Shown here piece after piece: positions 1-16,376 of a stretch of DNA of 43,646 nt. The notes below the pieces were generated by a model. That model was not told the origin of the DNA, did no database searches, and saw only the letters and a program-made list of their open reading frames with translations. Position 1 is the first letter of the stretch, and every line of letters begins with the position of its first letter. The position numbers and the translations under genes are program-made. Source of the DNA: a virus; IMG/VR virus record IMGVR_UViG_3300037493_001662, positions 1 through 43,646 of that record. The stretch is one strand, 5' to 3'.

Positions 1-541
1 TAGTAGTTGTTTATCAATAGTTAAGGAAAAATCAATAAGAACCTCCGCCAAGGGGCTTATAGGAGTTTGAATCTTCATAGACTGGATTCATAACTACAAT
101 GTATCTAAGTGCGTCAATGGGGTCTTTGGCGGCTCCCTTGTCTCCATCACTACCGGTCCATTCACGCATAGAATAGATTAGGTTTTGACACTTATCTGAT
201 ATAAACAGTTTGGGCTTATTGATATATGATATAGGTTGGCTTTGGTCAAAGTAGAGCCAGTCGTTGATTATTGACACACCTTGGTCAATCTTGATACCAG
301 CGGATGGCTTGAAATACATAGGGTCTTCTCCGTCATCAAGAAGGTTTATAAGCGTAACCCCTCCATCTTTGCCAATGGCTTGTGTTGCACCAGCACGAGG
401 GTCAATATAACGCTCTTCTATTTCTTCTTTTCCTCCCTCAAAGTCTCGAATAAGTCCTTTATACTCATCAATACCGCGACCAGCACTCGAACGCTGTGCA
501 GGGCCTTCTCTACCATCTGCTTTAGAGTCAGGAAGTGCCCA
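1..541. repeat. Terminal redundancy, left copy
   Basis: This segment matches 43106-43646 across its whole length with no gaps. I count nine base differences, at 128, 212, 227, 236, 296, 302, 311, 347 and 443. All fall in the terminase gene and none changes the protein. A true direct terminal repeat would normally be identical, so this looks like a circular or permuted genome assembled past its own start from a mixed population. The non-redundant length is about 43,105 bp. Confidence 0.93.
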
Positions 542-1651
542 CTCGCCGTAAGTCTCGTCCGGGAATTCCCTGTATATGTAGTAGTCGCCTTCTTTCGTGA
601 CCCTGCACCAGAGCATAAACCAGTTTCTCGCCCCCGCTGGGTCGCACGACATATAGTTCGTCCCTTCTTCTGGGATTTTGCCTTCTTCAATGATGTGCGT
701 TTCCCCGAACATCGGGAATTGCGAACCGACGAGGGCTTGTGCCCACCCATACGCTCGGATTTTCTTTTCATAGTCGGTTTTGTTATCTAATTGCTTCACC
801 ATTTGGTCAAATGGAGAATATACGTTAAATTTAGAGTGAAACCATATGATTCCCGATGTTTTTGAGCGACCTTCTGCCAAGTATGGCATATGACCCTTTG
901 GACAACCAGCAACGTGAATCAAATTCTGCGGAAGGATTTCCGCTTTCTTGGTTTTTGTGAACTTGCAACCATTTACATACTCTTTGACGACTTGAGAGAA
1001 ACCCCCAATAGGAGTGAAAGTTATTAACAGCCGTCCCCTGCGTGTCAAGATGCGGTAGCGAAGCGTTTGCACCCAGTCAAGTGGAACAAGTTCGTCGCAC
1101 CAAATGAAATCTGGCTCTCCACCCTCGATAACAACCTTATCTTGGGCATAGTTCATAAAGATACATTGGCTTCCGTTGGGAAATACAAACGAATTATGCG
1201 AAAAACCATTCTTAAGACTGTATTGAATGTTCGTAATACGTCCTTTCTTCATTGTCTTGTATTCCGATGGGATATACTTCCAGATTACATTCTGTTGCAT
1301 CTGAACCGAGGACTGAGAAGTAGTGTGGATACACCAAACTATTGAGTTCGGCTTGTTACAAAGCGTAAAAATGGCTCTTTTGGCTGCATATTCGGTCTTT
1401 CCTGCACGATTTCCGCCAAGAATTAATAGTTCTTCCTTCTTTTGTAACATCTCATCAGCATCTAGCCAATGAAAAGGCTCGTAGCCGTGCCGATATGGGT
1501 CTTCCTTCTCAGCATTTATCTTATCTTCTCTTAATTGAATCAACTCCGCAACCTTTTCAGCACCATCTCGCTCAATCATTACCTTGAGTTGCTCTTCCGT
1601 TGGCTTTATCAGCAACGGATGGTCACTCATTTTATCAAGAATGGTGCTCAT
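32..1651 (-). CDS. terL: Terminase large subunit (TerL)
   Basis: This is the ATPase and nuclease that drives DNA into the procapsid and cuts the packaged genome. The 539-residue length is normal for the family. A Walker A motif, GGNRAGKT, is at residues 79-86. Walker B, FIWCDE, is at 182-187. A coupling motif, TFTP, is at 211-214. The C-terminal RNase H-like nuclease shows its first acidic residue in SCDPAG (D337), further acidic residues near YIDPRAG, and the final DPIDALRY. The gene lies 3 bp after the 357-residue gene, and across the redundant end the portal gene starts about 30 bp downstream. No adjacent small terminase was recognised. The start codon has no Shine-Dalgarno motif. The assignment rests on motifs and synteny. 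Confidence 0.95.
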   Translation of the reverse strand: MSTILDKMSDHPLLIKPTEEQLKVMIERDGAEKVAELIQLREDKINAEKEDPYRHGYEPFHWLDADEMLQKKEELLILGGNRAGKTEYAAKRAIFTLCNKPNSIVWCIHTTSQSSVQMQQNVIWKYIPSEYKTMKKGRITNIQYSLKNGFSHNSFVFPNGSQCIFMNYAQDKVVIEGGEPDFIWCDELVPLDWVQTLRYRILTRRGRLLITFTPIGGFSQVVKEYVNGCKFTKTKKAEILPQNLIHVAGCPKGHMPYLAEGRSKTSGIIWFHSKFNVYSPFDQMVKQLDNKTDYEKKIRAYGWAQALVGSQFPMFGETHIIEEGKIPEEGTNYMSCDPAGARNWFMLWCRVTKEGDYYIYREFPDETYGEWALPDSKADGREGPAQRSSAGRGIDEYKGLIRDFEGGKEEIEERYIDPRAGATQAIGKDGGVTLINLLDDGEDPMYFKPSAGIKIDQGVSIINDWLYFDQSQPISYINKPKLFISDKCQNLIYSMREWTGSDGDKGAAKDPIDALRYIVVMNPVYEDSNSYKPLGGGSY

Positions 1652-1654
1652 TCT

Positions 1655-2728
1655 TTATAGTCCTAAGATACTACTCCAATCTTTGCTTCCAGACATTTTG
1701 TTTAGCATACCAGCACCTGCATCAATAGCATCGTTAGTCTTTTTTCTTTCCTGTTTGGCAAGTAAAACTTTTCCAAGTTCTTCAAGTCTTTTGGTTTCGG
1801 CATCTTGTTTAAGTAGTTCTTTTCTATAGTTAGCCATTTCTTCATCCGTGGAAATTCTAAATGAGCCTCTGAGTTCCTCTGGGACACCGGCATCCTGTTG
1901 CATTTCAGACTTGCTTTGAATCATTGGAAGTCCGTCTGGACTTACGCCAATACCACCACCACCAGCAAGTCTTCCAGCGTCTGCAATCATTGAGACACCG
2001 CCAGCAGCATTTGATAACAAATAGCCACCTTTGTTAATACCTATGCCTAATTTACCTGCAAGTTCATTCCAGTTTCCAAGATACTTATTTAAGTTTAATA
2101 ATGCTTTAGGTTTGTTTTTGGGACTTGCAAACTCATAGTCTCTTGCTGCTTGTTCTGCTAATTCTGCAGTAGTATTAACATTTACACCACCAATTGTGTT
2201 AATTTGTTCTCTTACTGCAGAGATACCAACTTGTCTGGCATAATTACCTTGTTCAATATATGCTCTTTCCTTAAACACACGAGCCAAGTTGCTTCTTCTA
2301 GAATAATCTGCTGCAAGTTCATCAAGGTCTGCCTGTAAATGCTTCTGTTGGTATGGGAACTCGTTCAACTTATTTGCGTGCATTTTCCACATTGCATTTG
2401 AGTGTTGTGCCTTTCCATCTTGTAAGAATGATTGTTGTGCCCAGTAATTTGGGTCTTGGACACTAGCCAATGGCATTATTCCTGGGTCGTAATTTATACT
2501 TACTATTGGAACTCTCCCAGCAAATGCCGGAGGAGTCGAAGGAATATAACTTACGTCAACTCCTTGAACATTGTTAATAGTTCTCCATCTATTGGCAGGA
2601 GAAGTTGACCATTCAAATTGTGGTTTGCGAATAATGTCTGTTTTGGCTTGTTCAGCAGCAAACCGACGCATTGCCATATAATCATCCCATTCCATCTTGG
2701 GATTACCTCTGGGTGGTCCTTCTTCCAT
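1655..2728 (-). CDS. Unknown virion-associated protein, 357 aa
   Basis: I do not recognise a family. The N-terminal 100 residues are rich in Pro, Trp and Tyr. Residues about 120-200 look helical, followed by a glycine-rich stretch around residue 250 (AGGGGIG) and a charged helical C-terminus. The gene lies between a 50-residue basic gene and terL in the late operon, only 3 bp before terL. Its composition and place suggest a minor structural or internal head protein. A role in packaging is possible, but no small-terminase DNA-binding helix-turn-helix is visible. Confidence 0.75.
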   Translation of the reverse strand: MEEGPPRGNPKMEWDDYMAMRRFAAEQAKTDIIRKPQFEWSTSPANRWRTINNVQGVDVSYIPSTPPAFAGRVPIVSINYDPGIMPLASVQDPNYWAQQSFLQDGKAQHSNAMWKMHANKLNEFPYQQKHLQADLDELAADYSRRSNLARVFKERAYIEQGNYARQVGISAVREQINTIGGVNVNTTAELAEQAARDYEFASPKNKPKALLNLNKYLGNWNELAGKLGIGINKGGYLLSNAAGGVSMIADAGRLAGGGGIGVSPDGLPMIQSKSEMQQDAGVPEELRGSFRISTDEEMANYRKELLKQDAETKRLEELGKVLLAKQERKKTNDAIDAGAGMLNKMSGSKDWSSILGL

Positions 2729-2767
2729 ATTACCAAGCCTTGCAACTCCAGTATCTAGGGGTTGTCA

Positions 2768-2920
2768 TTAGCAAGCATTACCTTTGTAGTTCTTGCCACG
2801 GGCACCACGACCCTTGCCATGCATCTTGCCTTCAATCATCTCCATCTTTTCGTGACCACTCTTCTTCTCGGCGGCTTCATGACGCTTAACGGCATCCATC
2901 TTCTTCTTAGTCGGCTTCAT
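2768..2920 (-). CDS. Small basic protein, 50 aa
   Basis: An ATG at 2920 opens a 50-codon frame ending in TAA at 2768. The peptide begins MKPTKKKMDAVKRHEAAEKK and ends in a Gly/Arg/Lys-rich tail, GRGARGKNYKGNAC. It is strongly basic, with an amphipathic helical first half and a nucleic-acid-binding-like tail. It fills the gap between two late genes in the same orientation and spacing style as its neighbours, which supports its being real. It could be a minor head-packaged DNA-binding protein. Its function is unknown. Confidence 0.6.
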   Translation of the reverse strand: MKPTKKKMDAVKRHEAAEKKSGHEKMEMIEGKMHGKGRGARGKNYKGNAC

Positions 2921-2944
2921 AGTAGTGTTATGCAATGTAAACAG

Positions 2945-3205
2945 TTATTCCTTCTTGTCAAGTAACGCTTTGACTCCAGCAGCCGATGCCTTGCTACATT
3001 CTCGGAGTAACTTGACATACTCCCCGTTCTCCGTGCTAACAGAAAATACAAATACATTGTCATCTGCATCTGGTATCTTAATAAAGAGCACTCCGCTAGC
3101 CCCGTAATGCTCTAGGTTAGTCAGAAAAGCCTTGGCATAAGCCTCCATCTGTTCTTCTGCGTGAGCAGTTAGAACTGCGTTTTTACGAGATTTTTTTTTA
3201 GCCAC
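2945..3205 (-). CDS. Hypothetical protein, 86 aa
   Basis: This small gene lies near the promoter end of the late operon. A GTG start at 3205 (MAKKKSRKN) overlaps the stop of the upstream gene by 8 bp. A TTG at 3226 would add seven residues. The basic N-terminus is followed by an alternating alpha/beta pattern with LFIKIPDADDNVFVFSVST, then a helical C-terminus. It does not match a family I know. The small size and position allow a packaging or regulatory role, but nothing specific supports either. Confidence 0.65.
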   Translation of the reverse strand: MAKKKSRKNAVLTAHAEEQMEAYAKAFLTNLEHYGASGVLFIKIPDADDNVFVFSVSTENGEYVKLLRECSKASAAGVKALLDKKE

Positions 3206-3671
3206 GGGGACGGCCTCTTTGGTCAAATCGAGCGTTGGACACGTATCCGCTAGGGTGTTCGATTATGTCAATGAATGTTCCGAGTTTAATAAATTGATTA
3301 TCCCAGACCTTTACTCGGTGCTTTTGCCCTCGCACTTCGCAATCTATCAATCTGCGGTTTGGGTAGATACGCTTGACAATGCCTACGGACTGGGGAGTTA
3401 AATCCTTCTTAGCCACTTCAGGTGCGTCAGGGGGGAGGGGGTCCGTTACGGCAACAACCTCTGGGATTACTTCCTTGGGGGCTTCCAGACCCTTTGACGC
3501 TAGTAAGGCTATCACCCCCTTCATCGTCCAACAAAACGCCCCCTGTCGGTTCGGCTTATCAGCCTCCTTAATCCAATCTACTCCTTGTTGATACTTCTCC
3601 GAAGCCCTGCTCGCAACTAACTCGGTTTTGGTGAACGGATACTCGGCAATGATGTGCTTTTCTTTGAACAT
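3198..3671 (-). CDS. Hypothetical protein, 157 aa, OB-like C-terminus
   Basis: This is the first gene of the long late operon. The N-terminal half (residues 1-70) contains GAFCWTMKGVIALLASKGL. A Pro/Val-rich linker follows, then a C-terminal beta-rich region from about residue 95 with a pattern like an OB or S1-type barrel (GIVKRIYPNRRLIDCEV, then VKVWDNQFIKLGTFIDI). That fold guess is weak. The ATG at 3671 follows an AT-rich leader without a Shine-Dalgarno motif. Position suggests early-late expression from the 3.7 kb control region. Confidence 0.7.
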   Translation of the reverse strand: MFKEKHIIAEYPFTKTELVASRASEKYQQGVDWIKEADKPNRQGAFCWTMKGVIALLASKGLEAPKEVIPEVVAVTDPLPPDAPEVAKKDLTPQSVGIVKRIYPNRRLIDCEVRGQKHRVKVWDNQFIKLGTFIDIIEHPSGYVSNARFDQRGRPRG

Positions 3672-3748
3672 GGATTCCTAATCTACACATCGAACTTAAT
3701 ATGTCGATTTAATTCACCGCCTGTATCTAATACTCTATTTATATCCAC

Positions 3749-3828
3749 TAGTCTTATATGGTGCCAGAAAACTGGCGGGGGGGCCGCCAGAAAATAGGTG
3801 GGGGGGTGCCAGAAAACTGGCGGGGGGG
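3749..3828 (-). repeat. Iteron cluster A: three quasi-palindromes separated by G7 runs
   Basis: On the plus strand there are three units, each ending in seven G: TGCCAGAAAACTGGC, CCGCCAGAAAATAGGT and TGCCAGAAAACTGGC. The outer two contain GCCAG and CTGGC arms around AAAA. On the minus strand the cluster is followed by TGGCACCATATAAGACTA, an exact 18-base match to the flank of cluster B at 14497-14514, then AT-rich sequence also loosely similar to that after cluster B. This is probably a binding array for the phage initiator. Confidence 0.85.
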
Positions 3829-3950
3829 CATGCGTAGATTACAGACCCCTAATATACGCAAAGTGTCAACCTTTTTACAATAAATTATGCAAGTGAAGAT
3901 GATTAGCGTCCTGGCCGCCTGACCGGATGGCGCGACCCCCTCCCCGCCAG

Positions 3951-3965
3951 TTAGAATCGTTCTAA
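3951..3965. promoter_or_regulatory. Palindrome TTAGAA-TCG-TTCTAA, operator-like
   Basis: A perfect 6-bp inverted repeat with a 3-bp spacer lies in the non-coding control region. Its size fits a repressor half-site pair. No partner regulator can be assigned. Confidence 0.35.
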
Positions 3966-4080
3966 ATGACGGATTCGGGCAGGGCTTTTGACACCCGAAA
4001 AGGTGGGGTTCGGGGGCTTTGTATGACCCGACAATTCAAAGGCTTCCTAGGGCATTCTAGAGGGGTTTAAAGGGGTGTTT

Positions 4081-4099
4081 CAGTTGACACTCTCAACTG
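4081..4099. promoter_or_regulatory. Palindrome CAGTTGA-CACTC-TCAACTG, operator-like
   Basis: A perfect 7-bp inverted repeat overlaps a TTGACA-like element at 4084-4089. The core CAGTTGAC recurs at about 4283 (in GTCAGTTGACTG) and about 4559 (in GTCAGTTGACTC). A repeated operator for the plus-strand operon is plausible. Confidence 0.35.
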
Positions 4100-4339
4100 G
4101 GGTTTGAGAGGTTTGGAAGTGGGGGTAAAAATAACTGAAATTAGGCATCGCCAGACCCGATTGGTTCGGATTGTATATCGGAGTTGTTCATTGATAGGGT
4201 CTAGTTAATCACTCCACGCCACCTGCGGGGCTTCCAGTCGAGTAGAACGCCTACGGCGAACGAAAGCGGAAGCAGAGTCAGTCAGTTGACTGAATCCGAG
4301 GAGTGATTGAAGCCCAACCCAAGAGCGACATCCACGCAT

Positions 4340-4702
4340 ATGTCGGCAACCCCCAAAAAGGCAGTACTGTCCTTTGAACAGTATCGGTTGGCAAAAGCAA
4401 AGCAGTCGAACCCCGAACAGGTTCAGTTGGTAGAGGCAGTCAATGCCTACCAAGACAAGGGTATGGGCAAAAAGGCAATCCGTGCCCGCCTTGTCCTCGG
4501 CGGAAAGGTTCTCGGAATCGTAGTGGTTCGGTTCGAGGATATCGATGACTGCAAGGGTCAGTTGACTCCTGCCGTCATTCGCTGGAAAGCGGATTCGGAT
4601 TCGGTCGCTACTATGACGGAAGCGATTGAAGCACTCGGGTGCGAACTCGAACCCGAGGTTCGCACGAAAGAGGACAATGGTGAAAGTGAGGTAAACGCCT
4701 AA
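4340..4702 (+). CDS. Hypothetical protein, 120 aa
   Basis: This is the first gene of a two-gene plus-strand operon. The chosen ATG at 4340 gives MSATPKKAVLSFEQYRLAKA. A TTG at 4307 would add 11 residues and lies only 3 bp after a GAGGAG. The N-terminal 60 residues form a charged helical region with EAVNAYQDKGMGKKAIRARL, reminiscent of a small helix-turn-helix, then a short beta segment (GKVLGIVVVRFEDI) and an acidic tail. A regulatory DNA-binding role is possible, but no family is recognised. Two stable hairpins follow its stop. Confidence 0.65.
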   Translation: MSATPKKAVLSFEQYRLAKAKQSNPEQVQLVEAVNAYQDKGMGKKAIRARLVLGGKVLGIVVVRFEDIDDCKGQLTPAVIRWKADSDSVATMTEAIEALGCELEPEVRTKEDNGESEVNA

Positions 4703-4736
4703 TACCCCGAAAGGTATAGACCCCCCGAAAGGGGGG
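4702..4736 (+). other. Two consecutive hairpins with GAAA-type loops
   Basis: ATACC-CCGAAA-GGTAT (about 4702-4717) is followed by CCCCCC-GAAA-GGGGGG (4721-4736). The second is a perfect 6-bp GC stem with a GNRA tetraloop. Both lie between two plus-strand genes. With no T-tract they are more likely RNA-processing or stability elements than intrinsic terminators. Confidence 0.6.
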
Positions 4737-4760
4737 CAACTATTTCCCCCCACACACACA

Positions 4761-4991
4761 ATGAAACACAAAGCATATAGCAGTAAAGTTAGGAAAAATG
4801 GACAGTTCGATACTGGTAACAGTAACCGGACTATTTGGTATAATAGCAAGTTGACGGCAAAGGTGGCAAAGGTAGTAGCACCACCACCTGCGAGTCCGTT
4901 CGACCCTATCGGTTTCACTAGGTCGCACAAGAAGGCAATCAATCAGGCGTTTTGGTCGCTGATTGAGTTCAAAAAGAACGATTCCAAGTAA
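4761..4991 (+). CDS. Hypothetical protein, 76 aa
   Basis: A small basic protein begins MKHKAYSSKVRKNGQFDTGN and is the last gene before a strong terminator. The sequence has a Lys-rich N-terminus, a PPPASPFDP segment at about residues 41-49, and a C-terminal helix. No family is recognised. The ATG follows an ACACACACA leader with no Shine-Dalgarno motif. The operon structure (hairpins before it, terminator after it) supports expression as part of the short plus-strand unit. Confidence 0.65.
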   Translation: MKHKAYSSKVRKNGQFDTGNSNRTIWYNSKLTAKVAKVVAPPPASPFDPIGFTRSHKKAINQAFWSLIEFKKNDSK

Positions 4992-4995
4992 ACAC

Positions 4996-5023
4996 AAGCC
5001 CCCAGTAAAATGGGGGCTTTTTT
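4996..5023 (+). terminator. Rho-independent terminator
   Basis: AAGCCCCCA and TGGGGGCTT form a 9-bp stem around GTAAAA, followed by a T6 tract. It lies 5 bp after the stop of the 76-residue gene and closes the plus-strand operon. Confidence 0.9.
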
Positions 5024-5138
5024 GTGCCTATTTTACTCGCGTCACTAGCACCGGCGATTTTGATCGAACCTGGAGTTGCCCGGATTCTCGCGCGGCCTGG
5101 ACTCAACTAATTTACAATCAGACCATACACACATTAAT

Positions 5139-5400
5139 AGCGTTACGTGTTTTATAGCGTTACTACTATTAAAGCGTTACCACTAACTTACATTTATAGC
5201 GTTACTAGTATTAAAGCGTTACTACTATTACACTATTACAACTATCCTATATTACTAGCGTTACTAGTTTTATAGCGTTACCATTATCAGCACTATCAAA
5301 CAATCGTGCTTTCAGAACCATTATTTGCTTGACAACATTAGTTTCATCCCCCCTAATAACCCCCGTTCTCTTAAATTACTCTTATTAGTATTAGCGTTAC
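5139..5400 (+). repeat. Phased AGCGTTAC repeat array
   Basis: Exact AGCGTTAC copies start at 5139, 5156, 5173, 5198, 5215, 5257, 5274 and 5393. A degenerate ACTATTAC sits at 5232. Spacings run 17, 17, 25, 17, 17, 25, 17, making a 59-bp higher-order unit repeated about 2.5 times. The last copy is 119 bp (7 x 17) from its neighbour. The typical 17-mer is AGCGTTACTAGTATTAA. The regular spacing suggests a multi-subunit DNA-binding site. Confidence 0.85.
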
Positions 5401-5538
5401 TAGTTGAGATTAGTCTTTTCAATCTGATTAGTCAATAGGTATTGGTGTATTGACTCAGCCGGTGGCTTCGTCTGTAGGAACTGCGTAAATTGACAGATAG
5501 GTGGATTAGTAGTAATACCGGTGCTGATATAAAGGCAC

Positions 5539-5561
5539 AAAAAAAGGTGCCGAAGCACCTT
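5539..5561 (-). terminator. Rho-independent terminator of the minus-strand early operon
   Basis: Read on the minus strand, AAGGTGC-TTCG-GCACCTT forms a 7-bp stem with a C(UUCG)G tetraloop and runs into a T-tract. It lies 24 bp beyond the stop of the 41-residue gene. Confidence 0.9.
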
Positions 5562-5584
5562 GTGTAATTCCAGGATTAGTGGGA

Positions 5585-5710
5585 TTAGTCAAACCAACTG
5601 TCGTAGTAGGATTGCTCGTATTGAGTAAACAGGTAGTTTACATAACGCCAGTATTGCTGGTAATCTATTACGTGCTGATTACTGTCAATAACAGGTTTGT
5701 TACTTTGCAT
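5585..5710 (-). CDS. Small Tyr/Gln-rich protein, 41 aa
   Basis: The ATG at 5710 overlaps the stop of the upstream gene, and the frame runs 41 codons to TAA at 5585. The peptide contains HVIDYQQYWRYVNYLFTQYE and ends in YDSWFD. It is unusually rich in Tyr, Gln and Trp, suggesting an amphipathic helix. It is the last gene before the early terminator. Overlapping start, correct strand and terminator placement argue that it is real. Function is unknown. Confidence 0.55.
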   Translation of the reverse strand: MQSNKPVIDSNQHVIDYQQYWRYVNYLFTQYEQSYYDSWFD

Positions 5711-6137
5711 CGGTTGGTGGGACTTTGGGCTTAGTAAGAGTCAACTGGTCTTTGCGACGCTGGCGATACTCGCGTTGATAGCGAAGTATCTTTTCCTTGT
5801 TGAGGAAGTAATACTCGTTATAGGTGGCTCGATACTCTTCACGGGTTTTAAGCGTTTGCTTAAATAGTCCGCAACTAACACCCATTTGATATATAGAAGC
5901 AGCAGTTTTAGGTGTTTCGCGGGATACTTTGATTCGTGCTTCTTCAGCAATACGTGCTTCCTCTTTTTTCTTCCAATCCGCAGTTGATATCATCTTGTAG
6001 ATTACAACTTTACGAGTGTTGCAACTACCCTTAGGCTTCACACCAAACTTCTTTTTGTCGTGTTGCTTGAGTTTGATTGCTAACACATTGTCTAGCAATA
6101 CAGTAGGAACATATTGAACTTTAGTCCGAGTCTTCAT
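5700..6137 (-). CDS. Hypothetical basic protein, 145 aa
   Basis: This highly basic protein follows the amidoligase in the minus-strand operon. Residues about 55-75 form a charged helix (WKKKEEARIAEEARIK). Near the C-terminus is YYFLNKEKILRYQREYRQRR, a pattern resembling the basic linker often found before or after HNH nuclease domains, but no HNH motif is present. Two Cys occur (CNTRK near residue 39 and SCGLF near 88), too few for an obvious zinc site. It may bind nucleic acid. Its place in the amidoligase operon makes it a possible partner or substrate, without direct evidence. Confidence 0.7.
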   Translation of the reverse strand: MKTRTKVQYVPTVLLDNVLAIKLKQHDKKKFGVKPKGSCNTRKVVIYKMISTADWKKKEEARIAEEARIKVSRETPKTAASIYQMGVSCGLFKQTLKTREEYRATYNEYYFLNKEKILRYQREYRQRRKDQLTLTKPKVPPTDAK

Positions 6138-6160
6138 AGGTTTGTGGTTTTACCGGTATT

Positions 6161-6190
6161 AGGGTAATCACCGGAATTGGTGACTACCCC
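6161..6190 (-). other. Intercistronic inverted repeat
   Basis: AGGGTAATCACC and GGTGACTACCCC can pair around GGAATT, nearly perfectly, between the amidoligase stop and the next gene. No T-tract follows on the minus strand, so mRNA processing, stability or attenuation is more likely than full termination. Confidence 0.45.
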
Positions 6191-6201
6191 TACCAGTGGG
6201 A

Positions 6202-7674
6202 TTATTCGATCGCCCCTTCTGTTGAGTTAACAGCGATTGCGTAAGTATCGAAGTCTTTCAATACAGGCAATGATGCTGCTACATAGGACGGTTGGAACTT
6301 GAGGATACGATTAACTACGTAATGCTTCAAGTCGAAGGGTGCATCAGACTGCATAAAGTCCTCGAAGGTAGCAACACTAGTATAAGGCTTAGCCAAGTAT
6401 TGCATAAAGGCACACCAATACTTCAACTTGTGGAAGTTGAGAGTTGGCATACCTAGTCGGACTTCTACAGTATTATGCTCCGATAGGCATTGGGTATTGA
6501 CAGCAGTATAGCGATTACCGTGATGGTCGCGGTCGATGCCACAGTAGTGATTGTGGGAACGAGAGTAAGATACGGTTCGGTGTGCCCAGCCATTGATAGC
6601 ATCACGCAGTTTAGTAGCCGTGCGTAAAGCCGACTGATTCGTGCGATGACGCATATCAATATGGACGTGATTCCCACAAGTGTTATTAACCTTAGCACCT
6701 GCATCGGTCATAGACTTCATCACTTCCTGCATAGTCTTCCAATCCTTCGGACTAGAGCCATTGATGAACCACGTCAATTCCTGGTAAGACGCTAACTGTT
6801 CGGACTGTAGGTTAGTGCGAATAGAACCATCACCCTTAAAGCACAACCAAGGGTGTTGAGGGAATCCATCTGTATCCCAATTTACGATATCGCTATTACG
6901 ATTAGCAACAAACTCTAACTCGATTCCTAGGCATTCACCTTCCGGTCGGAGTCGTTTAGCGATAGCAAGACTATGACTATTGAGACTACGCATCCAGTTG
7001 TGGGGACGGGTTTGCACAATATGCTGAATCATAATATTGAAGCGTTGAGGTAATGACTGAGTTGCGGTGCGACTAGTAAACTGTGCACTACGACGAATAC
7101 GACGAAGACGGATTCGCTGGAACCACTTAGCCGCAGTAACCGTATCTCCGTGCATCATCATCGTTTTCTTCTTATCATCCGAATCGACAAACTTGCAGTC
7201 GTTAGGGACAATCTCATTCATACCATTATGGAAATGAGGTGCTTCGATAGTTGCTACGAACGCTTCCGGTTGATACTGATACTGTTCTAATACCACTTGG
7301 TGGTTCTTACCAACCCAACCAAGCAAGTTATTAGCAGACTTACCGGATAACTTGACTTGCTCCATTCGTAGCAGAATGGTAACTCGGCTAACGATAGTTG
7401 ACATATTAATGTCAGCCCAGTTGTCATACTCGAACCACTGGGAACCCATAATTACCATCTTAATGAGGGTCGGATTATTCCGAACGAATTCAGGACTCTG
7501 ATTCCACTGGGAAACCACTTCTGCTACCTGTTCATCCTTTTCGTTATACTGACGACCGATACGAGTGCTAGCAATCAACATAACGATGATATCGTTCTGT
7601 TTCTTGCGAAGCGTGGGATTAGCGGAAAGAAGGAGTTGTTCCTTCTTGTCATTCTTACTGTCGTTGATACTCAC
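6202..7674 (-). CDS. Amidoligase-family enzyme with long N-terminal extension
   Basis: The C-terminal half matches the putative amidoligase family (glutamine-synthetase-like fold, ATP-dependent carboxylate-amine bond formation). Motifs in order are GIELEF (about residues 247-252), DGSI (about 283), CGNHVHID (about 333-340), a YCGIDRDHHGNRY segment and NTVEVRLG (about 399-406). These acidic, His and Arg residues would bind Mg-ATP. The first 240 residues are not part of that domain and I do not recognise them. The gene starts with GTG. It lies downstream of a class II glutamine amidotransferase on the same strand, the pairing expected if ammonia or an amide group is handed over. The substrate is unknown: a peptide, cell-wall component or metabolite are all possible. 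Confidence 0.8.
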   Translation of the reverse strand: MSINDSKNDKKEQLLLSANPTLRKKQNDIIVMLIASTRIGRQYNEKDEQVAEVVSQWNQSPEFVRNNPTLIKMVIMGSQWFEYDNWADINMSTIVSRVTILLRMEQVKLSGKSANNLLGWVGKNHQVVLEQYQYQPEAFVATIEAPHFHNGMNEIVPNDCKFVDSDDKKKTMMMHGDTVTAAKWFQRIRLRRIRRSAQFTSRTATQSLPQRFNIMIQHIVQTRPHNWMRSLNSHSLAIAKRLRPEGECLGIELEFVANRNSDIVNWDTDGFPQHPWLCFKGDGSIRTNLQSEQLASYQELTWFINGSSPKDWKTMQEVMKSMTDAGAKVNNTCGNHVHIDMRHRTNQSALRTATKLRDAINGWAHRTVSYSRSHNHYCGIDRDHHGNRYTAVNTQCLSEHNTVEVRLGMPTLNFHKLKYWCAFMQYLAKPYTSVATFEDFMQSDAPFDLKHYVVNRILKFQPSYVAASLPVLKDFDTYAIAVNSTEGAIE

Positions 7675-7764
7675 GGTTTTGTTGTTTTTTGGTTTTTACT
7701 GCTTTAGTCGGTTCTACAGAGTGTAGGATTGCCAATGTTAGCAGGAAAGGGGGGGAAAGTTTTA

Positions 7765-7784
7765 CATCCCTATTACTAGGGATG
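7765..7784. promoter_or_regulatory. 8-bp palindrome between amidotransferase and amidoligase genes
   Basis: CATCCCTA-TTAC-TAGGGATG is a perfect inverted repeat in a 185-bp spacer. On the minus strand a TTGAGT lies 16 bp before a TAATAG that overlaps the palindrome, so this may be a promoter with an overlapping operator for the amidoligase. There is no T-tract for termination. Confidence 0.35.
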
Positions 7785-7859
7785 CCTTAAAACTCAATTT
7801 AGTTCTGTTTTTGAACTATGGTAATTGATGAATTGAAGGATTTTGATCGAACTGACCGA

Positions 7860-8939
7860 TTAGTAGCCCCAGTCGGAATCCTTCCAAGCCTTGGTTTGCT
7901 TGCGACTGTTCTTCTTCGACTGCTCCATCGACTTCTTGTGATACGCGTCCAACATCGCTTGCTCGGATTCAGTAACTACTTCTTCTGGTTCAGTAGAAGG
8001 AGTGCTAGGAGTAGCCAGAGTCGCAGGACTGTAGGACTTGTAGGTTCCTGGTGAATAACCACCGCTATAGCCACCAGTATAACCACTAGCACCAGCACTA
8101 CCAAGACTGCGATAGATGCTAGCGGTGCTGGCATAAGACATAGAACTATTGAACTTGGGAAACTCCGATGAGGTGACTTCACCATTCTGTTGGAATACGT
8201 GTTTTACGTAATCTGCTAGCATCATAGGAGTCGATACATTCGCAGTTTTGATCGAATTGAAGTCGCACAACATCTTGGTCAATTCAACGCAATGCGTCTT
8301 ATCCGTGCAAATGACGTAACTGTCCAATTCCACGATATAGGACATATATAGTGGTGCTCGGTTATCACGCAATACAAACATATTGCCTATTGAATCAAAT
8401 CCTACAACTGCAGCATAACCAGCAAGACCATCTTTGAAGGATTGCTCGCCGTTAAGGTGAAGGAAGCAATTTAGGATATGCTCCGAATCGCAGGTAGTAT
8501 GTAGTGGTAGTTTCTCACCAGTCCACTCGACTACACCATTATGTGCAATCGTATAAGTCCCGTGTTCGTTGGAACCGGTAAATGGGTGAGTATTATCAAT
8601 ACTCTTACCACAAGTAGCGGTGCGACCGTGAGCAATGATGGAACCGTTAATTGCACCTTTCTTAGGTTTCACACCATTCACATCAAAGTCGATACCTTCG
8701 ACTAGTTTCGTTTTGATATTGCTTTTAAGCATATCAATACCCTCTTTAAGAGTGCCCATACCAGCAACGGTATCTGCGGAAAGATACCGTTCTGTGTATT
8801 GACCATTCTGGTGTTTGATGGAATAACCGAATCCATCTTTTTGACTAGCACCTAGCAAAAATGCCATTTTAAGCACTAATGCTGATGCCTGTTTGCTATT
8901 TTTAGTAGCAATACGGCTAATTGCAATCATCTTACACAT
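7860..8939 (-). CDS. Class II glutamine amidotransferase
   Basis: This enzyme would hydrolyse glutamine to release ammonia for a partner. I chose the ATG at 8939 because it places the nucleophile at Cys2 (MCKMIAISRI), which becomes N-terminal after Met removal, as the family requires. Further motifs are DGFGYS (35-40), AHGRTATCGKSIDNTHPF (103-120; the substrate-binding Arg and Asn region), AHNG (132-135; oxyanion hole), TCDSEHIL (149-156) and RDNRAPLY (191-198). The C-terminal 100 residues are unusual: a Ser/Tyr/Gly low-complexity stretch (GYTGGYSGGYSPGTYKSYSP, about 286-305), then an acidic and a basic segment ending in WGY. The frame stays open to an ATG at 9065, adding 42 residues. That would need propeptide cleavage as in some PurF or GltB enzymes. 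Confidence 0.85.
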   Translation of the reverse strand: MCKMIAISRIATKNSKQASALVLKMAFLLGASQKDGFGYSIKHQNGQYTERYLSADTVAGMGTLKEGIDMLKSNIKTKLVEGIDFDVNGVKPKKGAINGSIIAHGRTATCGKSIDNTHPFTGSNEHGTYTIAHNGVVEWTGEKLPLHTTCDSEHILNCFLHLNGEQSFKDGLAGYAAVVGFDSIGNMFVLRDNRAPLYMSYIVELDSYVICTDKTHCVELTKMLCDFNSIKTANVSTPMMLADYVKHVFQQNGEVTSSEFPKFNSSMSYASTASIYRSLGSAGASGYTGGYSGGYSPGTYKSYSPATLATPSTPSTEPEEVVTESEQAMLDAYHKKSMEQSKKNSRKQTKAWKDSDWGY

Positions 8940-9178
8940 ATGTTTATTGTTTTGTTGGTATAAGTCCGAGTGATGCTTTGCAACGACTGTTGCAATCGAT
9001 AGCATATTCCGATCAATCGTGTTGATGGAACTGTTGCTTCGGATAGTTGCACTACTTGGACTCATAGATGTAATAGTATCAACTGAATTGAATACAGCAA
9101 GCCATCATTTGACTAAATGGACATAGATAGATGGACTCTGCTATTACTAGTAAAATGATCGACTGTAGTAATAAACAA

Positions 9179-9406
9179 TTACAATCCAATGTATGATAGT
9201 GGGATGTATTGTATCACGGGATGCATAAGGTTGCTAGTATCTACTGGAAGTCCAGGATACACAGTAATTTTAGTATCTACATACTTAATACCATCTTGGT
9301 GATAAGTTTTATAATCAACAATTATATTGCTGACGTAGATTGTATTGGGCACGGGAATATTAATCCGGTTGTTTTCAGTCGTCTTGATGTTTATAGTGTT
9401 TGACAT
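9179..9406 (-). CDS. Hypothetical protein, 75 aa, upstream of amidotransferase
   Basis: This small Asn/Ile/Tyr-rich protein has a beta-like pattern (NRINIPVPNTIYVSNIIVDY). It has no signal peptide, membrane segment or known motif. It lies on the same strand about 240 bp upstream of the chosen amidotransferase start (about 110 bp upstream of the earlier one) and could be co-transcribed. Amidoligase operons sometimes encode short peptide substrates, so it is a candidate substrate or accessory factor. That is inference from position only. Confidence 0.6.
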   Translation of the reverse strand: MSNTINIKTTENNRINIPVPNTIYVSNIIVDYKTYHQDGIKYVDTKITVYPGLPVDTSNLMHPVIQYIPLSYIGL

Positions 9407-9532
9407 ATTGGTAGTTGTTGGGAATAGTTGTATTCCGGTCAGATACTGATTAGTAGCAGCCGGTATTTGGTGGGTTTTGTATTTTTCTGACTTTTATTTT
9501 TCCGCGTCCGCTGTTGGGCCAGGAGTCAGTCT

Positions 9533-9636
9533 ACTATTAAATGCGTTACAATTTTGATTCTGTAGGATTTATCCTAAAAACTAAACTATTAAATGCGTTA
9601 CAATTTTGATTTCGTGGAATTTATCTGAAAAAGTGA
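9533..9636. repeat. Tandem 52-bp direct repeat, two copies
   Basis: Copies at 9533-9584 and 9585-9636 agree at 44 of 52 positions, and the first 27 bases are identical. Each carries CTATTAAATGCGTTAC, close to the CTATTAAAGCGTTAC of the 5.1-5.4 kb array. The pair lies immediately beside the tRNA cluster and may bind the same protein or mark a mobile segment boundary. Confidence 0.8.
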
Positions 9637-9707
9637 GCATCTGGACGGACTTGAACCGACAACAGCCTGTTTACAAAACAGGTATTCTACCATTGAATTA
9701 CAGATGC
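9637..9707 (-). tRNA. tRNA-Thr (anticodon TGT)
   Basis: A 71-nt cloverleaf with 7-bp acceptor (GCATCTG/CGGATGC-type pairing), T-arm loop TTCAAGT, and anticodon stem CCTGT/ACAGG around TTTGTAA. It reads ACA. CCA is not encoded. Confidence 0.93.
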
Positions 9708-9712
9708 GAAAT

Positions 9713-9784
9713 ACGGCAAGCGGGGGTCGAACCCGCAACATCCTGCTTGGAAAGCAGACACTCTGCCAATTGAGTTACTGCCGT
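9713..9784 (-). tRNA. tRNA-Gly (anticodon TCC)
   Basis: A 72-nt cloverleaf with acceptor ACGGCAG-type stem, T-loop TTCGACC flanked by GCGGG/CCCGC, and anticodon loop TTTCCAA. It reads GGA. Confidence 0.93.
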
Positions 9785-9791
9785 GAAAGGT

Positions 9792-9863
9792 AGGCGTGAG
9801 GGGAATCGAACCCCCGACTTAAGCCTTATAAAGACTCCACTCTAACCGCTGAGTTACACGCCT
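9792..9863 (-). tRNA. tRNA-Ile (anticodon TAT)
   Basis: A 72-nt cloverleaf with perfect acceptor AGGCGTG/CACGCCT, T-loop TTCGATT, and anticodon loop TTTATAA. The TAT anticodon reads the rare ATA codon directly, without lysidine modification. Confidence 0.88.
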
Positions 9864-9870
9864 GTAAAGT

Positions 9871-9954
9871 AGAGGATATCCGATTCGAACGGATGGGGCT
9901 TTTACACCCAGTAGTTTTCAAGACTACCGCAATAGACCACTCTGCCAACCCTCT
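9871..9954 (-). tRNA. tRNA-Ser (anticodon TGA)
   Basis: An 84-nt tRNA with a long variable arm. The anticodon stem GTAGT/ACTAC encloses CTTGAAA, the acceptor ends pair as AGAGG/CCTCT, and the T-loop is TTCGAAT. It reads TCA. Confidence 0.93.
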
Positions 9955-9960
9955 GAAAGT

Positions 9961-10041
9961 TGATGGTGCTGGAATCGAACCAGCCGTAGATATAATCCAA
10001 CAGATTTACAGTCTGCCGTCCCGCCACGGAACATACCACCA
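9961..10041 (-). tRNA. tRNA-Tyr (anticodon GTA)
   Basis: An 81-nt tRNA with a long variable arm, as expected for bacterial tRNA-Tyr. The acceptor TGGTGGT pairs with ACCATCA with one wobble. The T-arm is GCTGG/CCAGC with loop TTCGATT. The anticodon loop is CTGTAAA. Confidence 0.9.
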
Positions 10042-10050
10042 GTAAAGTGC

Positions 10051-10136
10051 GGAGAAGGCAGGATTCGAACCTGCGGTAGTTTTTAGGCTACAAGTCTTTA
10101 GCAAAGACTCGCATTAAGCCTCTCTGCCACTTCTCC
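10051..10136 (-). tRNA. tRNA-Ser (anticodon GCT)
   Basis: An 86-nt tRNA with a long variable arm. The acceptor GGAGAAG pairs with CTTCTCC, the anticodon stem AGTCT/AGACT encloses TTGCTAA, and the T-loop is TTCGAAT. It reads AGC and AGT. Confidence 0.93.
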
Positions 10137-10154
10137 TCGAATGTTAAAGAACAT

Positions 10155-10224
10155 ACCAGCACTAGGACTTGAACCTAGACTAAAAGGACCAAAACCTTTC
10201 GTGCTACCATTACACTATGCGGGT
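10155..10224 (-). tRNA. tRNA-Gln (anticodon TTG)
   Basis: A 70-nt cloverleaf. The anticodon stem AAAGG/CCTTT encloses TTTTGGT, and the T-arm CTAGG/CCTAG encloses TTCAAGT. The acceptor has one mismatch (ACCCGCA against TGCTGGT), slightly weakening the call. It reads CAA. Confidence 0.85.
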
Positions 10225-10230
10225 CAAATG

Positions 10231-10734
10231 TCAACGTTGCTTCTTCTTGTATTCCATCACTACTTCCTTGCCGTCGATATACACTACATCGAACTCATCC
10301 CACAGTTCGAATTCATTAGTGGACTCCATCTCGAACATCAAGTCTGGATATTGTGATGATAATTCCTTCATCCACTTCAATGGTGAACAAGAGCGAGTGC
10401 GGAACTCATAGCGAATCTCCCCTTCATTAATCTGAGAGAACTGTGCGTCTATTGCGTCTGTAGGACAGCCCCAGTTCTTGATGGTGTATTCGTGTAGCGT
10501 TCCGTATCCAGTCATCTCAATGTTTTGACTCAAGGTGAATTCATCATTTTCTCCGGCTGTCTCAATCAACATTTGAGGGATAGGTGAGTGTGTAAAGAAT
10601 GTTAAGGGCGACTTGTCGTCCAAATCAACCAAATCTTCCTGTAGGTAAAACAGGTCGAGTGCTTCCTTTTTATCTTCGTGTATAGTGCTGATTGTTAGGG
10701 TGTTGTAAGCCCACTCAATAGATACTTTTTTCAT
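10231..10734 (-). CDS. Api92/DUF1281-like protein
   Basis: A 167-residue acidic protein. The core YTIKNWGCPTDAIDA (about residues 84-98), then IRYEFRTRSCSPLKWMKELS and a segment with FEMES, resembles the ferredoxin-like Api92/DUF1281 family, whose hallmark is an NWG-T/C-K/P-x-D motif, a threonine/serine-proline segment and a later aromatic strand. Such proteins occur in phages and mobile elements and their role is unknown. It is on the same strand as the tRNA cluster that follows. The family link is from memory of the motif pattern. Confidence 0.7.
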   Translation of the reverse strand: MKKVSIEWAYNTLTISTIHEDKKEALDLFYLQEDLVDLDDKSPLTFFTHSPIPQMLIETAGENDEFTLSQNIEMTGYGTLHEYTIKNWGCPTDAIDAQFSQINEGEIRYEFRTRSCSPLKWMKELSSQYPDLMFEMESTNEFELWDEFDVVYIDGKEVVMEYKKKQR

Positions 10735-10756
10735 TTGTTTCGTTATTGGTTGTTGA

Positions 10757-10990
10757 TTAGTAGGAGTTGTAGTCCATCCACTCTTGGCGTTCTTGTGGAT
10801 TCATTCCATCAAGAGGGTCGCTGGTAGTGGCTGGCGTGTTGAATACAGTAGTATCAAACAGCAACTTAAAGGCACTCTTGCGAGCCGTTTCTGTAGGGAT
10901 TTCTCCACCAAAGTATTTGGTGAGGACTTCTTTGAAAGCGGTGCTTTCGTTTTCGTATAATTGGTTCTCTGGTAATTCTTCGTTACTCAT
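10757..10990 (-). CDS. Hypothetical acidic protein, 77 aa
   Basis: A small acidic protein begins MSNEELPENQLYENESTAFK. It has a predicted helical centre and ends in PQERQEWMDYNSY. No domain is recognised. It lies directly downstream of a folded RNA element with a U-tract (11021-11080), so its expression may depend on read-through of that element or on a nearby promoter. The gap to the next gene is 22 bp. Confidence 0.65.
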   Translation of the reverse strand: MSNEELPENQLYENESTAFKEVLTKYFGGEIPTETARKSAFKLLFDTTVFNTPATTSDPLDGMNPQERQEWMDYNSY

Positions 10991-11020
10991 AGTGTTGTAT
11001 TGTTGGTAGAAAGGGAAACT

Positions 11021-11080
11021 AAAAAGAGGGCTGGCTTAGTGCCACTTTCGTCCTTGACTCATCGAGTCCAAGAACCCTCT
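11021..11080 (-). terminator. Branched hairpin with U-tract, terminator or leader RNA
   Basis: Minus-strand RNA has an outer stem AGAGGG/CCCTCT. It encloses a long hairpin (GTTCTTG paired with CAAGGAC plus ACTC/GAGT above it) and a short TGGC-ACTAA-GCCA hairpin, giving a three-way junction joined by GAAAG. A T5 tract follows the outer stem. It lies between two early genes, 30 bp before the next start. It could be an intrinsic terminator, an attenuator or a structured leader. Confidence 0.55.
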
Positions 11081-11166
11081 CGTCAGTCAACTGCAGTTTC
11101 AAGGTGCAGTTCGTTACGAAATTAACAATGCCCGCTATCTCCGAAATAGCAAGCAGTCTAGGTTTG

Positions 11167-11628
11167 TTATTTTGCCGTGCTGATGTTACGCAGGACTTCC
11201 TGCAATACGGCGGTGCGATATGTCATACCGCTTGGAATATGAAACTCAAATGGAGTTACATTACCCATAATCTCATCTACTTCAATAGGCTTAATTGCTC
11301 GCAGTTCCTTTATCTTGAGGTATGCCTTGCGTTGCTTTTCGTATGCCATCACAAGTTTAGAGCGAGACTGCGTTTGCACATCACTTACTGTAGTGTTTCC
11401 GGTGATATCAATAGCGTATTGGTTCTTGTCGATGTTCGGTTCCTTGCAGAAGATTTTATACGAAGCCAACTTTAGGTTTGAGTTGTGCGACTTGCACAAA
11501 GACTCAAAGTCGGTATAGTTAATAAACAGTTCTGCAAAGCGAGTTGCTTCTCGGTTGTTCAAGTTATGCATTTTGGCATACAAGAACATAGGTGAGGACT
11601 TAGTTTCTGGGCTGATGGATTTGGTCAT
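11167..11628 (-). CDS. Hypothetical protein, 153 aa
   Basis: The start at 11628 (MTKSISPETKSSPMFLYAKM) is chosen because it follows the upstream stop by one base, in the arrangement TAATATG. An open extension upstream overlaps the preceding gene. The protein is largely helical and basic, with LNNREATRFAELFINYTDFE near the N-terminus and a C-terminal helix. It might be a DNA-binding or regulatory early protein, but I see no diagnostic motif. It is followed by the branched RNA element. Confidence 0.7.
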   Translation of the reverse strand: MTKSISPETKSSPMFLYAKMHNLNNREATRFAELFINYTDFESLCKSHNSNLKLASYKIFCKEPNIDKNQYAIDITGNTTVSDVQTQSRSKLVMAYEKQRKAYLKIKELRAIKPIEVDEIMGNVTPFEFHIPSGMTYRTAVLQEVLRNISTAK

Positions 11629-11629
11629 A

Positions 11630-12064
11630 TTAGTTATTTTTTTTGGTGGAAGAGTTTTTCTTGGATTTCTTGAGTTTGCCAGTCTTAGGCTTCTTGTCAA
11701 GGGTTGAAATGACGTTCATTTTCTTTTGCTTGGAAATGATTTTGCTGAGTGCTTCGAATGTAGCCTTTTCAAATTCATCATCAATGATGCCTTCGTCACG
11801 GAGCATATTGCAACCTTGGTCGAACAACTGCTGGAACTGCTTAACATCATTGGATAATGAGAACACAGTAAGAACTCCATACTGTGGAAGACCGCACTTA
11901 AGTTCTTCTTGATGAACCAACTGAAGCACTTGCCACGCTTCGAATCGACTAATCATTCCTTGATTAATCATTTGGATAATACCGATTGGTTCCTTCTCGG
12001 TTAGAATGTTGCTAGTGAAAAGGCAAGAGGGAACACCATCTTGCTCATTGTTGTTTGTAGTCAT
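11630..12064 (-). CDS. Hypothetical protein, 144 aa
   Basis: An early minus-strand gene with ATG at 12064 after a pyrimidine-rich leader (CTCTCCCT). The body is helical (IGIIQMINQGMISRFEAWQV) and the last 20 residues are almost entirely Lys, Ser, Thr and Asn, a typical disordered nucleic-acid-binding tail. No family is recognised. It stops just before the start of the 153-residue gene, so the two are co-transcribed. Confidence 0.7.
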   Translation of the reverse strand: MTTNNNEQDGVPSCLFTSNILTEKEPIGIIQMINQGMISRFEAWQVLQLVHQEELKCGLPQYGVLTVFSLSNDVKQFQQLFDQGCNMLRDEGIIDDEFEKATFEALSKIISKQKKMNVISTLDKKPKTGKLKKSKKNSSTKKNN

Positions 12065-12072: not shown

Positions 12073-12372
12073 TTATTTATTTTCCAGATTGTTCATAGAG
12101 TCAAGAAGATTATCGAGATTCTTCTTCAAGGCTTCAACAACCATTAGCAGTTTCAAGTGCTGATTGGAGGCATCGGTGAACTCTTGCTTGAAGAATTCAA
12201 CCTGTGCGTTAAGGTGGTTAATGGTCGCTAGGTGCTCGCCGAGAACCTTCTGGGATGTGACCCAGAGGGCTTCGTGCATCGCAATCTTGATGTTCGCTTT
12301 ATCAATGTGGTCATTAAGCCCTTGGATATAGGCTTTTTGTAATTCTTCGTTATTGCTGGAGTTTTGGGTCAT
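12073..12372 (-). CDS. Coiled-coil protein, 99 aa
   Basis: The start at 12372 (MTQNSSNNEELQKAYIQGLN) gives a 22-bp overlap with the upstream gene. An in-frame ATG at 12399 would add nine residues. Almost the entire sequence has a heptad-like pattern of Leu, Ile, Val and Asn, with a C-terminal LVxEALKKNLDNLLDSMNNLE-type coiled coil. It is likely an oligomeric accessory protein of the upstream helix-turn-helix protein. Function is unknown. Confidence 0.65.
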   Translation of the reverse strand: MTQNSSNNEELQKAYIQGLNDHIDKANIKIAMHEALWVTSQKVLGEHLATINHLNAQVEFFKQEFTDASNQHLKLLMVVEALKKNLDNLLDSMNNLENK

Positions 12373-12841
12373 TTTCGTTGTTTTGGATTGGGTTGGCATC
12401 TGTGACTTTGCCTATAACCTCGGTCGTGTCAATGTCGAAAGCACGATTAAGTTCATCCTGCGTAATTTTCAGGCGAGCCTCGATGCGGACTGTGGGAGCG
12501 TCAGCCAAGTCTCTCACCTTGTCGATGGCGATAGCGATAGCCATAGGTAGTTGCCCTATAGGGATGTTTTCTGCTTGTTCTGATAGTCTGGTAGCCCCCT
12601 TGAGGACAAAGTCGCCCAGAAGCCCTGCCACTTCACGCTTCCACGCACCGAGTTCCAGTTTCCCGTCAGACTCCATCTGTTGTCTTACGGAAACAATAGT
12701 TGACTTTCTAATAGATACTAGTTTTGCTGTTTCTTCACAACTCGTTCCTTCCATCAAAAGTTTTTCCGCAATCTTTCGCACCGGCTTAGGAATGTTCTTA
12801 GTCGGGTCATTGAGTGATTCGTTATTTGCTTGATAATCCAT
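12350..12841 (-). CDS. Helix-turn-helix protein, candidate regulator or small terminase
   Basis: The N-terminal 60 residues contain a helix-turn-helix pattern: KIAEKLLMEGTSCEETAKLV followed by a recognition-like helix, RKSTIVSVRQQM. The middle is helical (GDFVLKGATRLSEQA, then IAIAIDKVRDLADAP) and the acidic C-terminus is likely disordered. Such an HTH plus oligomerising helices fits either a transcription regulator or a TerS-type packaging protein. No other TerS candidate is evident beside terL. It is the first minus-strand gene at a divergent junction, only 23 bp from the resolvase start, a typical regulator position. Confidence 0.7.
   Translation of the reverse strand: MDYQANNESLNDPTKNIPKPVRKIAEKLLMEGTSCEETAKLVSIRKSTIVSVRQQMESDGKLELGAWKREVAGLLGDFVLKGATRLSEQAENIPIGQLPMAIAIAIDKVRDLADAPTVRIEARLKITQDELNRAFDIDTTEVIGKVTDANPIQNNENDPKLQQ
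12810..12837 (+). promoter_or_regulatory. Candidate sigma70-type promoter for the replication operon
   Basis: TTGAGT (12810-12815) and GATAAT (12832-12837) are separated by 16 bp. Transcription would begin near 12844, about 20 bp before the resolvase ATG. The promoter would lie inside the start of the divergent gene. Confidence 0.45.
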
Positions 12842-14154: not shown

Positions 14155-14822
14155 GCGACAATAAACCAATGTTTGCAGGGGTATTCATCCCTCGTGAAGT
14201 TTTGCTGGACGCAGACATTTCTGCGTCTGGCAAGATTATCTTCGCAATTATCCAGTCGCTTGACAACGACAAGGGTTGCTTTGCGAGCAATGAATACATT
14301 GGCAATATGCTAGGACTGTCGGAATCATCGGTTCGTGCGTCCATTGGAGACTTGGCGAAGAAGAATTATATTCACCGAGTAATCAATGAATGTGGCACTC
14401 GAACCATCCGCACTTGTTCCTCTGCATCCTTCCTACCCCCCCAGCAGAAAACTGGCACCCCCCCGCCAGAAAACAATCGCCCCCCCGCCGGAAAACTGGC
14501 ACCATATAAGACTAAAGATAAACATAGTAATATAGATACAAAGGGTTTGCTCCTTCAACCTGTTCCTCATTCAGAAGCCTTCGGCAAAGTCTGGAACGAC
14601 TGGATGCAATACCGCAACGAACGCAAGAAACCTTTAACACCAACAACAATCAAACAACAAATCGAATTCCTCTCCAACCTCAACGAAAATGACGCAACAC
14701 AATCCATTATTCTCAGCATCCGAAATGGATGGCTTGGTATCTTCCCTCCTAGCGGGGGAAACTCCTATCGTTCCAAGCAACCGACCAAGCCCCTCACAGA
14801 AAGTGACCACGAATCCTTCTAA
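14151..14822 (+). CDS. Replication initiator, lambda O-like architecture
   Basis: A 223-residue protein with an N-terminal winged-helix or helix-turn-helix domain (about residues 20-80, with FASNEYIGNMLGLSESSVRA as the HTH), a Pro-rich disordered linker (95-120), and a C-terminal domain (about 140-195) likely to contact the loader. The linker is encoded by three iterons (14436-14500) followed by AT-rich DNA, just as the lambda origin lies inside gene O. It begins in an ATGA overlap with the exonuclease and is followed by a DnaC-like loader, as O is by P. I infer that it binds the iterons and recruits host DnaB through the loader. Sequence identity to O is not claimed. Confidence 0.75.
   Translation: MSDNKPMFAGVFIPREVLLDADISASGKIIFAIIQSLDNDKGCFASNEYIGNMLGLSESSVRASIGDLAKKNYIHRVINECGTRTIRTCSSASFLPPQQKTGTPPPENNRPPAGKLAPYKTKDKHSNIDTKGLLLQPVPHSEAFGKVWNDWMQYRNERKKPLTPTTIKQQIEFLSNLNENDATQSIILSIRNGWLGIFPPSGGNSYRSKQPTKPLTESDHESF
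14436..14514 (+). repeat. Iteron cluster B inside the initiator gene, putative origin
   Basis: Three 22-bp units each consist of C7 plus 15 bases: AGCAGAAAACTGGCA, GCCAGAAAACAATCG and GCCGGAAAACTGGCA. They are followed by CCATATAAGACTA and AT-rich DNA. Because 22 is not a multiple of 3, the encoded peptides differ between repeats, so the DNA rather than the protein appears conserved. TGGCACCATATAAGACTA (14497-14514) is exactly repeated, inverted, at 3749-3766. Confidence 0.88.
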
Positions 14823-16305: not shown

Positions 16306-16376
16306 AGCCCTGTAGTTCAATGGATAGAACACTCGCCTTCTAAGCGAGTCATCTAGGTTCGATTCCTAGCAGGGCT
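16306..16376 (+). tRNA. tRNA-Arg (anticodon TCT)
   Basis: A 71-nt cloverleaf with acceptor AGCCCTG/CAGGGCT, T-arm CTAGG-TTCGATT-CCTAG, and anticodon stem CTCGC/GCGAG around CTTCTAA. It reads AGA. It stands alone on the plus strand, inside the replication operon directly after the ERF gene. Confidence 0.94.

Follow-up and report, generated by a model that had tools for sequence, protein, structure and literature searches.

The stretch of DNA from an uncultured phage analysed here (the window, 43,646 nucleotides of IMG/VR virus record IMGVR_UViG_3300037493_001662) carries, in a gene-free island between two opposing operons with facing terminators, an array of short, same-facing sites repeated about every 8.45 bp, and in its closest relatives this place and pitch are kept while the letters of the sites change. 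We read it as a cis-acting multi-site element onto which many copies of a helix-turn-helix (HTH) protein would be loaded, its likeliest use being a pac-like mark for packaging, and we give this reading a probability of roughly 0.38. Packaging was ranked first, with modest confidence, because of the same-facing sites, the invariant box beside them, the shielding from transcription and the parallels with SPP1/SF6 and ICP1.

The two ends of the record overlap by 541 bp (1-541 versus 43106-43646), with 532 of 541 positions identical (98.3%, nine mismatches), so that the record looks complete, with a circular map of about 43.1 kb in which the join shows slight strain variation. Full-length contigs of this group break at different points, namely at the terminase in the window, at the array in L034 and at RusA in L038, which a circular or permuted map would allow; assembly can also cause such variation, and the breaks do not bear on where packaging starts. 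For the large terminase and the portal protein no close solved or cultured relative was found, the best cultured terminase match being 32%, and a search of bacterial genome contigs (hosts and prophages) returned no relative of the phage. The GC skew follows gene direction and was uninformative. Seven consecutive tRNA genes lie on the minus strand at 9635-10224, with a further tRNA-Arg at 16306-16378, and this set differs among relatives. At 6202-9065 an amidoligase gene adjoins a class-II glutamine amidotransferase-like gene, a pair kept in relatives in either order. The features in and near the array are the following.

32-1651, minus strand: large terminase gene (terL), about 3.5 kb from the array
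4996-5028, plus strand: intrinsic terminator facing right, with its stem-loop at 4996-5019 and TTTTTGTGCC at its end; bounds the island on the left, a layout shared by relatives
5131-5290, plus strand: phased array, TTA every 8-9 bp, peak at 8.4-8.45 bp
5139, 5156, 5173, 5198, 5215, 5257 and 5274 (block 5139-5281), plus strand: seven exact copies of AGCGTTAC
5232, plus strand: degenerate copy ACTATTAC, one unit within the same block
5393-5400, plus strand: outlying exact AGCGTTAC, in phase at 119 bp from the previous copy (about 14 x 8.5), also present in L014 and L028
5477-5496, minus strand: conserved box, reading CTGTCAATTTACGCAGTTCC on that strand and containing RGTTCC
5534-5561, minus strand: leftward intrinsic terminator (stem-loop 5561-5544, then a T-run and GTGCC); bounds the island on the right

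The array is genuine and lies far outside what chance would give. The eight exact 8-mers and one degenerate copy that a preliminary description had placed between 5139 and 5400 were all confirmed at their positions, while in 1000 dinucleotide shuffles of the 505-bp island no 8-mer exceeded five copies. Beyond the array, the window contains a single further exact AGCGTTAC, at 2962 on the minus strand. The array block, with a GC content of 31%, shows 18 TTA against 4 TAA on the plus strand, and strong half-sites (AGCGTTAC) and weak ones (TASTATTAA, for instance) follow in alternation, in all some 16-18 half-sites that face one direction. The spacing of 17-17-25 described earlier holds for the first eight units (17, 17, 25, 17, 17, 25, 17), the eighth exact copy (5393) lying outside the superperiod. 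Since TTA every 8-9 bp is the basic half-site, 17 bp corresponds to two units, 25 bp to three and 119 bp to fourteen. The eight exact copies share one period of 8.46 bp (R = 0.986, unmatched in 5000 random placements) and the first seven a period of 8.43 bp (R = 0.997), but they do not fit periods of 10.5 or 11 bp (R about 0.24). The spectral peak of TTA was at 8.4 bp, equalled in none of 2000 shuffles, and a lag analysis independent of the letters gave a pitch of 8.45 bp with z = 11.7 against shuffles. The array took first place when all 3- and 4-mers were scanned in 150-bp windows, both in this genome and in a set of about 100 loci that are related or look alike. A role as RNA was rejected, as the folding of 5125-5410 was unremarkable (z = -1.36) and the only Rfam matches were tRNAs.

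Next, the borders of the array were examined by a terminator scan of positions 1-12000. The array does sit between converging terminators as first proposed, a rightward one at 4996-5019 and a leftward one at 5561-5544, and the 10-mer TTTTTGTGCC occurs just twice in the window, once at the end of each. Inside the right-hand terminator, at a distance of 19-53 bp, RGTTCC was found in 12 of 12 islands, in most of them as TGTCAAA-N-CRGTTCC, and L034 and L038 have a second RGTTCC further into the island. The TTGACA within the box resembles a sigma-70 promoter element and was not called as one, since no conserved -10 partner was seen by eye. A conserved box thus stands beside repeats of divergent letters, as in the pac of SPP1/SF6.

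A terminase scan yielded 80 loci. In close relatives the array lies between the terminator that follows the amidoligase/5700 operon and the terminator of the opposite operon. L014 and L028 retain AGCGTTAC, whereas the arrays of L029 and L149/L208 are built of ATTCATTA-AATGCATTA, that of L048 of GTTATAGT-type units and that of L212 of TAACGC units in locus orientation, that is, GCGTTA in the orientation of the window. The letters are not wholly free, as the window and its closest relatives share TTA. Lag analysis gave a pitch of 8.5 bp for L014, 8.55 bp for L028, L029, L149/L208 and L048, and 8.65 bp for L212, so that with the window the peaks fall at 8.45-8.65 bp with z from 4.5 to 19.6; L149 was also recovered independently by a search pattern for the rhythm. 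Other islands are periodic at 8.2 (L034), 8.7 (L031) and 7.9 bp (L038). Against a conserved pitch stand L033 and L213, whose islands gave no significant pitch in the lag analysis; in L033 (6174-6720) the terminator-bounded island holds TAACGGTTGTAAG at steps of about 100 bp in place of the array. Therefore, the expectation that close relatives would carry the array at the same place with regular spacing was borne out, while the 59-bp superperiod was not kept: it is visible in the window, with a self-identity of 79% at lag 59, and other lags lead in the relatives. We take it for a block of seven units that was duplicated in the window's lineage.

The pitch claim is limited to this phage family. 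TTA arrays with 8/9-bp steps were found in 97 viral contigs and those of a 9/10-bp control pattern in 79, with long arrays at both pitches, figures so close that a virosphere-wide excess was dropped; unrelated viruses have TTA arrays with other pitches, so that among viruses at large 8.5 bp is nothing out of the ordinary. AGCGTTAC-N9-AGCGTTAC occurs in 24 stretches of viral contigs, L014 and L018 among them being from relatives. Two further arrays were set aside, the GATC array of L052 with steps of 8-9 bp, as that locus is GATC-rich throughout, and the ACAC array of L057 as a simple repeat. In L052 (1-13308), a related phage, GATC occurs about 20 times per kb over the locus and most densely before 8.5 kb, the 8-9-bp run lying at about 6556-6700. 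In the unrelated contig L144 (6537-6660), AGCGTTA and GACTTTA alternate every 8-9 bp, with AGCGTTA at 17-bp steps, and a small gene without assigned function and a primase-helicase gene adjoin; this resemblance may be coincidental.

Tandem repeats can grow by slippage, and the array could on this account be a functionless expansion within a gene-free gap. The 59-bp block does resemble a lineage-specific duplication, and arrays with a pitch of 9-10 bp exist in unrelated viral contigs. Slippage by itself, however, would preserve letters and not pitch, whereas the window and its six closest islands keep 8.45-8.65 bp at one place, with partly different letters and a conserved box adjoining, and we regard neutral expansion as very improbable.

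Two predicted proteins were considered as possible binders of the array, and they are listed here together with a second small site.

9533-9601, plus strand: two copies of ACTATTAAATGCGTTAC, 52 bp apart, just beyond the 3' end of the tRNA cluster
12350-12841, minus strand: HTH163, HTH followed by a helical hairpin, a small-terminase-like layout and possibly TerS
17956-18342, plus strand: HTH128, 128 aa, two predicted HTH domains (residues 22-66 and 85-119), candidate array binder

We infer that HTH128 is the best candidate. Among 20 relatives its gene is present in L028, L029, L048, L149 and L212, exactly those with TTA-type arrays, a co-occurrence based on about six genomes; in L033 the corresponding locus would fall past the contig end. 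A tree built from four core proteins places L212 outside the window's clade with a support of 85-90 (below 95), so that the pairing of HTH128 with a TTA array needs two changes. The recognition segments also differ with the array, CRWVC in the AGCGTTAC group versus YxWCV in the GCATTA group, and taken together the pairing is suggestive. An AlphaFold-type model of HTH128 (mean pLDDT 80) predicts two three-helix HTH domains, the first matching Fis and the second NarL/LuxR-type proteins, in each case over a single HTH domain with Z of 5-6 and with no family named. A search for further genomes with HTH128 returned near-copies or fragments of known ones. Near the corresponding place in the genome of L213, the early operon encodes a cytosine DNA-methyltransferase-like protein (L241, 5315-6520).

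The preliminary description had singled out the 163-residue HTH protein instead. As a putative small terminase, HTH163 might contact regularly spaced sites through a ring of HTH motifs; its HTH and hairpin (helices 19-59 and 64-114 in an AlphaFold model with mean pLDDT 65) and the G20C small terminase among its structural matches (Z 5.7, rmsd 1.5 over 44 residues) would fit such a role. These matches, however, span the HTH alone, tie with unrelated HTH proteins at Z of about 5-6 and name no family, and the HTH domains of the SF6 small terminase show little DNA sequence preference (PMC4737164). HTH163 is found in 19 of 20 relatives irrespective of the type of array, and among close relatives with different array letters its recognition helix barely changes. 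The presence of the 128-residue protein follows the array more closely, and HTH163 as the binder appears highly unlikely.

The gene for HTH128 lies in an operon with replication genes, downstream of those for an O-like protein, a helicase loader and Erf, a position that counts against a packaging role for this protein and in favour of a replication element, either a second origin or an enhancer, at which an initiator-like HTH protein would bind the array and AT-rich DNA would open. Low GC content (31%) agrees with this, and so do direct repeats in many copies, which are typical of iteron origins (for example the PLE RepA iterons, PMC7145576). On the other hand, a distance of 9 kb separates the array from the O-like gene, its 8.45-bp pitch is unlike the usual 17-22-bp iterons, and the O gene is kept in relatives without HTH128. 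Moreover, a candidate origin is already present in the O-like gene's own repeats. This lambda-O-like gene contains, at 14435-14503, three repeats of 22 bp that include the palindrome GCCAGAAAACTGGC and C-runs, and a matching three-copy set at 3760-3828 precedes the gene at 3198-3671, with similar sets before that gene in L031, L033, L036 and L038; O-protein sites at two places are a possible interpretation. We therefore judge a replication role of the array unlikely.

HTH128 also gave weak scores against the regulators phrog_836 and phrog_323, and it may act as a regulator at promoter-side sites, the array serving to titrate the protein, to silence or to insulate between operons. The main support comes from 9533-9601, where the 16-17-bp composite of the array stands as a pair. 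This site precedes the minus-strand operon whose end is marked by the array's right-hand terminator; L028 keeps the pair at the same place as two copies of AGCGTTAC 52 bp apart. In L029 and L048, though, the pair could not be recognised, and the array itself sits between convergent gene ends, where no promoter of conserved sequence was noticed, so that a regulatory array seems improbable to us. The partition-like centromere also suggested for the array seems unlikely as well, since no integrase or partition gene was seen among the proteins scanned, a subset of the ORFs; in the same subset, scanned with PHROGs or Pfam, no ParA-, ParM- or TubZ-type motor with its adaptor gene was found.

For the pac-like element we propose the following mechanism. 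Facing terminators would keep free of transcription a stretch in which 16-18 same-facing half-sites, at a pitch of 8.45 bp, adjoin the conserved RGTTCC box. Many copies of one phage-encoded HTH protein, with HTH128 as the best candidate, would bind side by side; the regularity had earlier been taken to suggest an oligomeric protein, and a multi-copy protein-binding site is supported here as an inference. As 8.45 bp corresponds to about 290 degrees of B-DNA twist, neighbours would be offset by about -70 degrees, and successive subunits would thus wind left-handed about the DNA, with roughly five to a turn, instead of lying on one face. Judging from its conservation, the box could be a recognition or cutting point and the array a fast-evolving loading site, the bound array marking the phage genome for packaging. 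A more specific form of this proposal, in which pitch (about 8.45 bp) and half-site direction are conserved in place of letters and a left-handed filament of the co-evolving two-HTH protein marks the genome for packaging or replication, is tentative and somewhat doubtful. A two-domain protein on every 17 bp is difficult to reconcile with the 25-bp step of three half-sites, and L034, L038 and L031 are periodic without HTH128, so that another protein would be needed there. A pac site is often in or near terS, and the distance of the array from HTH163 (about 7 kb) and from terL (3.5 kb) also speaks against packaging.

The selection of phage DNA for packaging has been reviewed as still unclear and controversial (2022; PMC9611059). 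A series of related phages with changing letters at constant pitch and place makes it straightforward to test how a protein bound in many copies reads regular spacing, and HTH128 with the array is a specific gene-site pair testable in vitro.

T7-type phages have arrays of short imperfect repeats beside their terminal repeats, near the DNA-processing site, and differ from the window in repeat, pitch and terminase group. For omega/ParB on the 7-bp heptads of pSM19035 parS a left-handed protein spiral round straight DNA has been modelled (PMC9499535), and as there, the sites are contiguous, short and of one length. However, parS heptads are served by a ribbon-helix-helix protein and ParA, whereas the window has half-sites of 8-9 bp, a candidate predicted as HTH and, among the proteins scanned, neither a ribbon-helix-helix family match nor a ParA. 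ICP1, for which headful packaging is predicted, has its pac site in a 1.3-kb gene-free stretch (PMC7145576), and the passages on it mention no 8-9-bp array. Both phages thus have a gene-free stretch, with the termini mapped in ICP1 and the window known from its sequence. In SPP1 the pac lies across the start of the small-terminase gene and its repeats are few, unlike the gene-free, terminator-bounded island with its 16-18 half-sites at 8.45 bp. Nevertheless, in the pac of SPP1/SF6 the boxA repeats have been replaced while the box across the cutting point keeps about 90% identity (PMC4737164), and the window likewise brings direct repeats and a better conserved box together within a short stretch.
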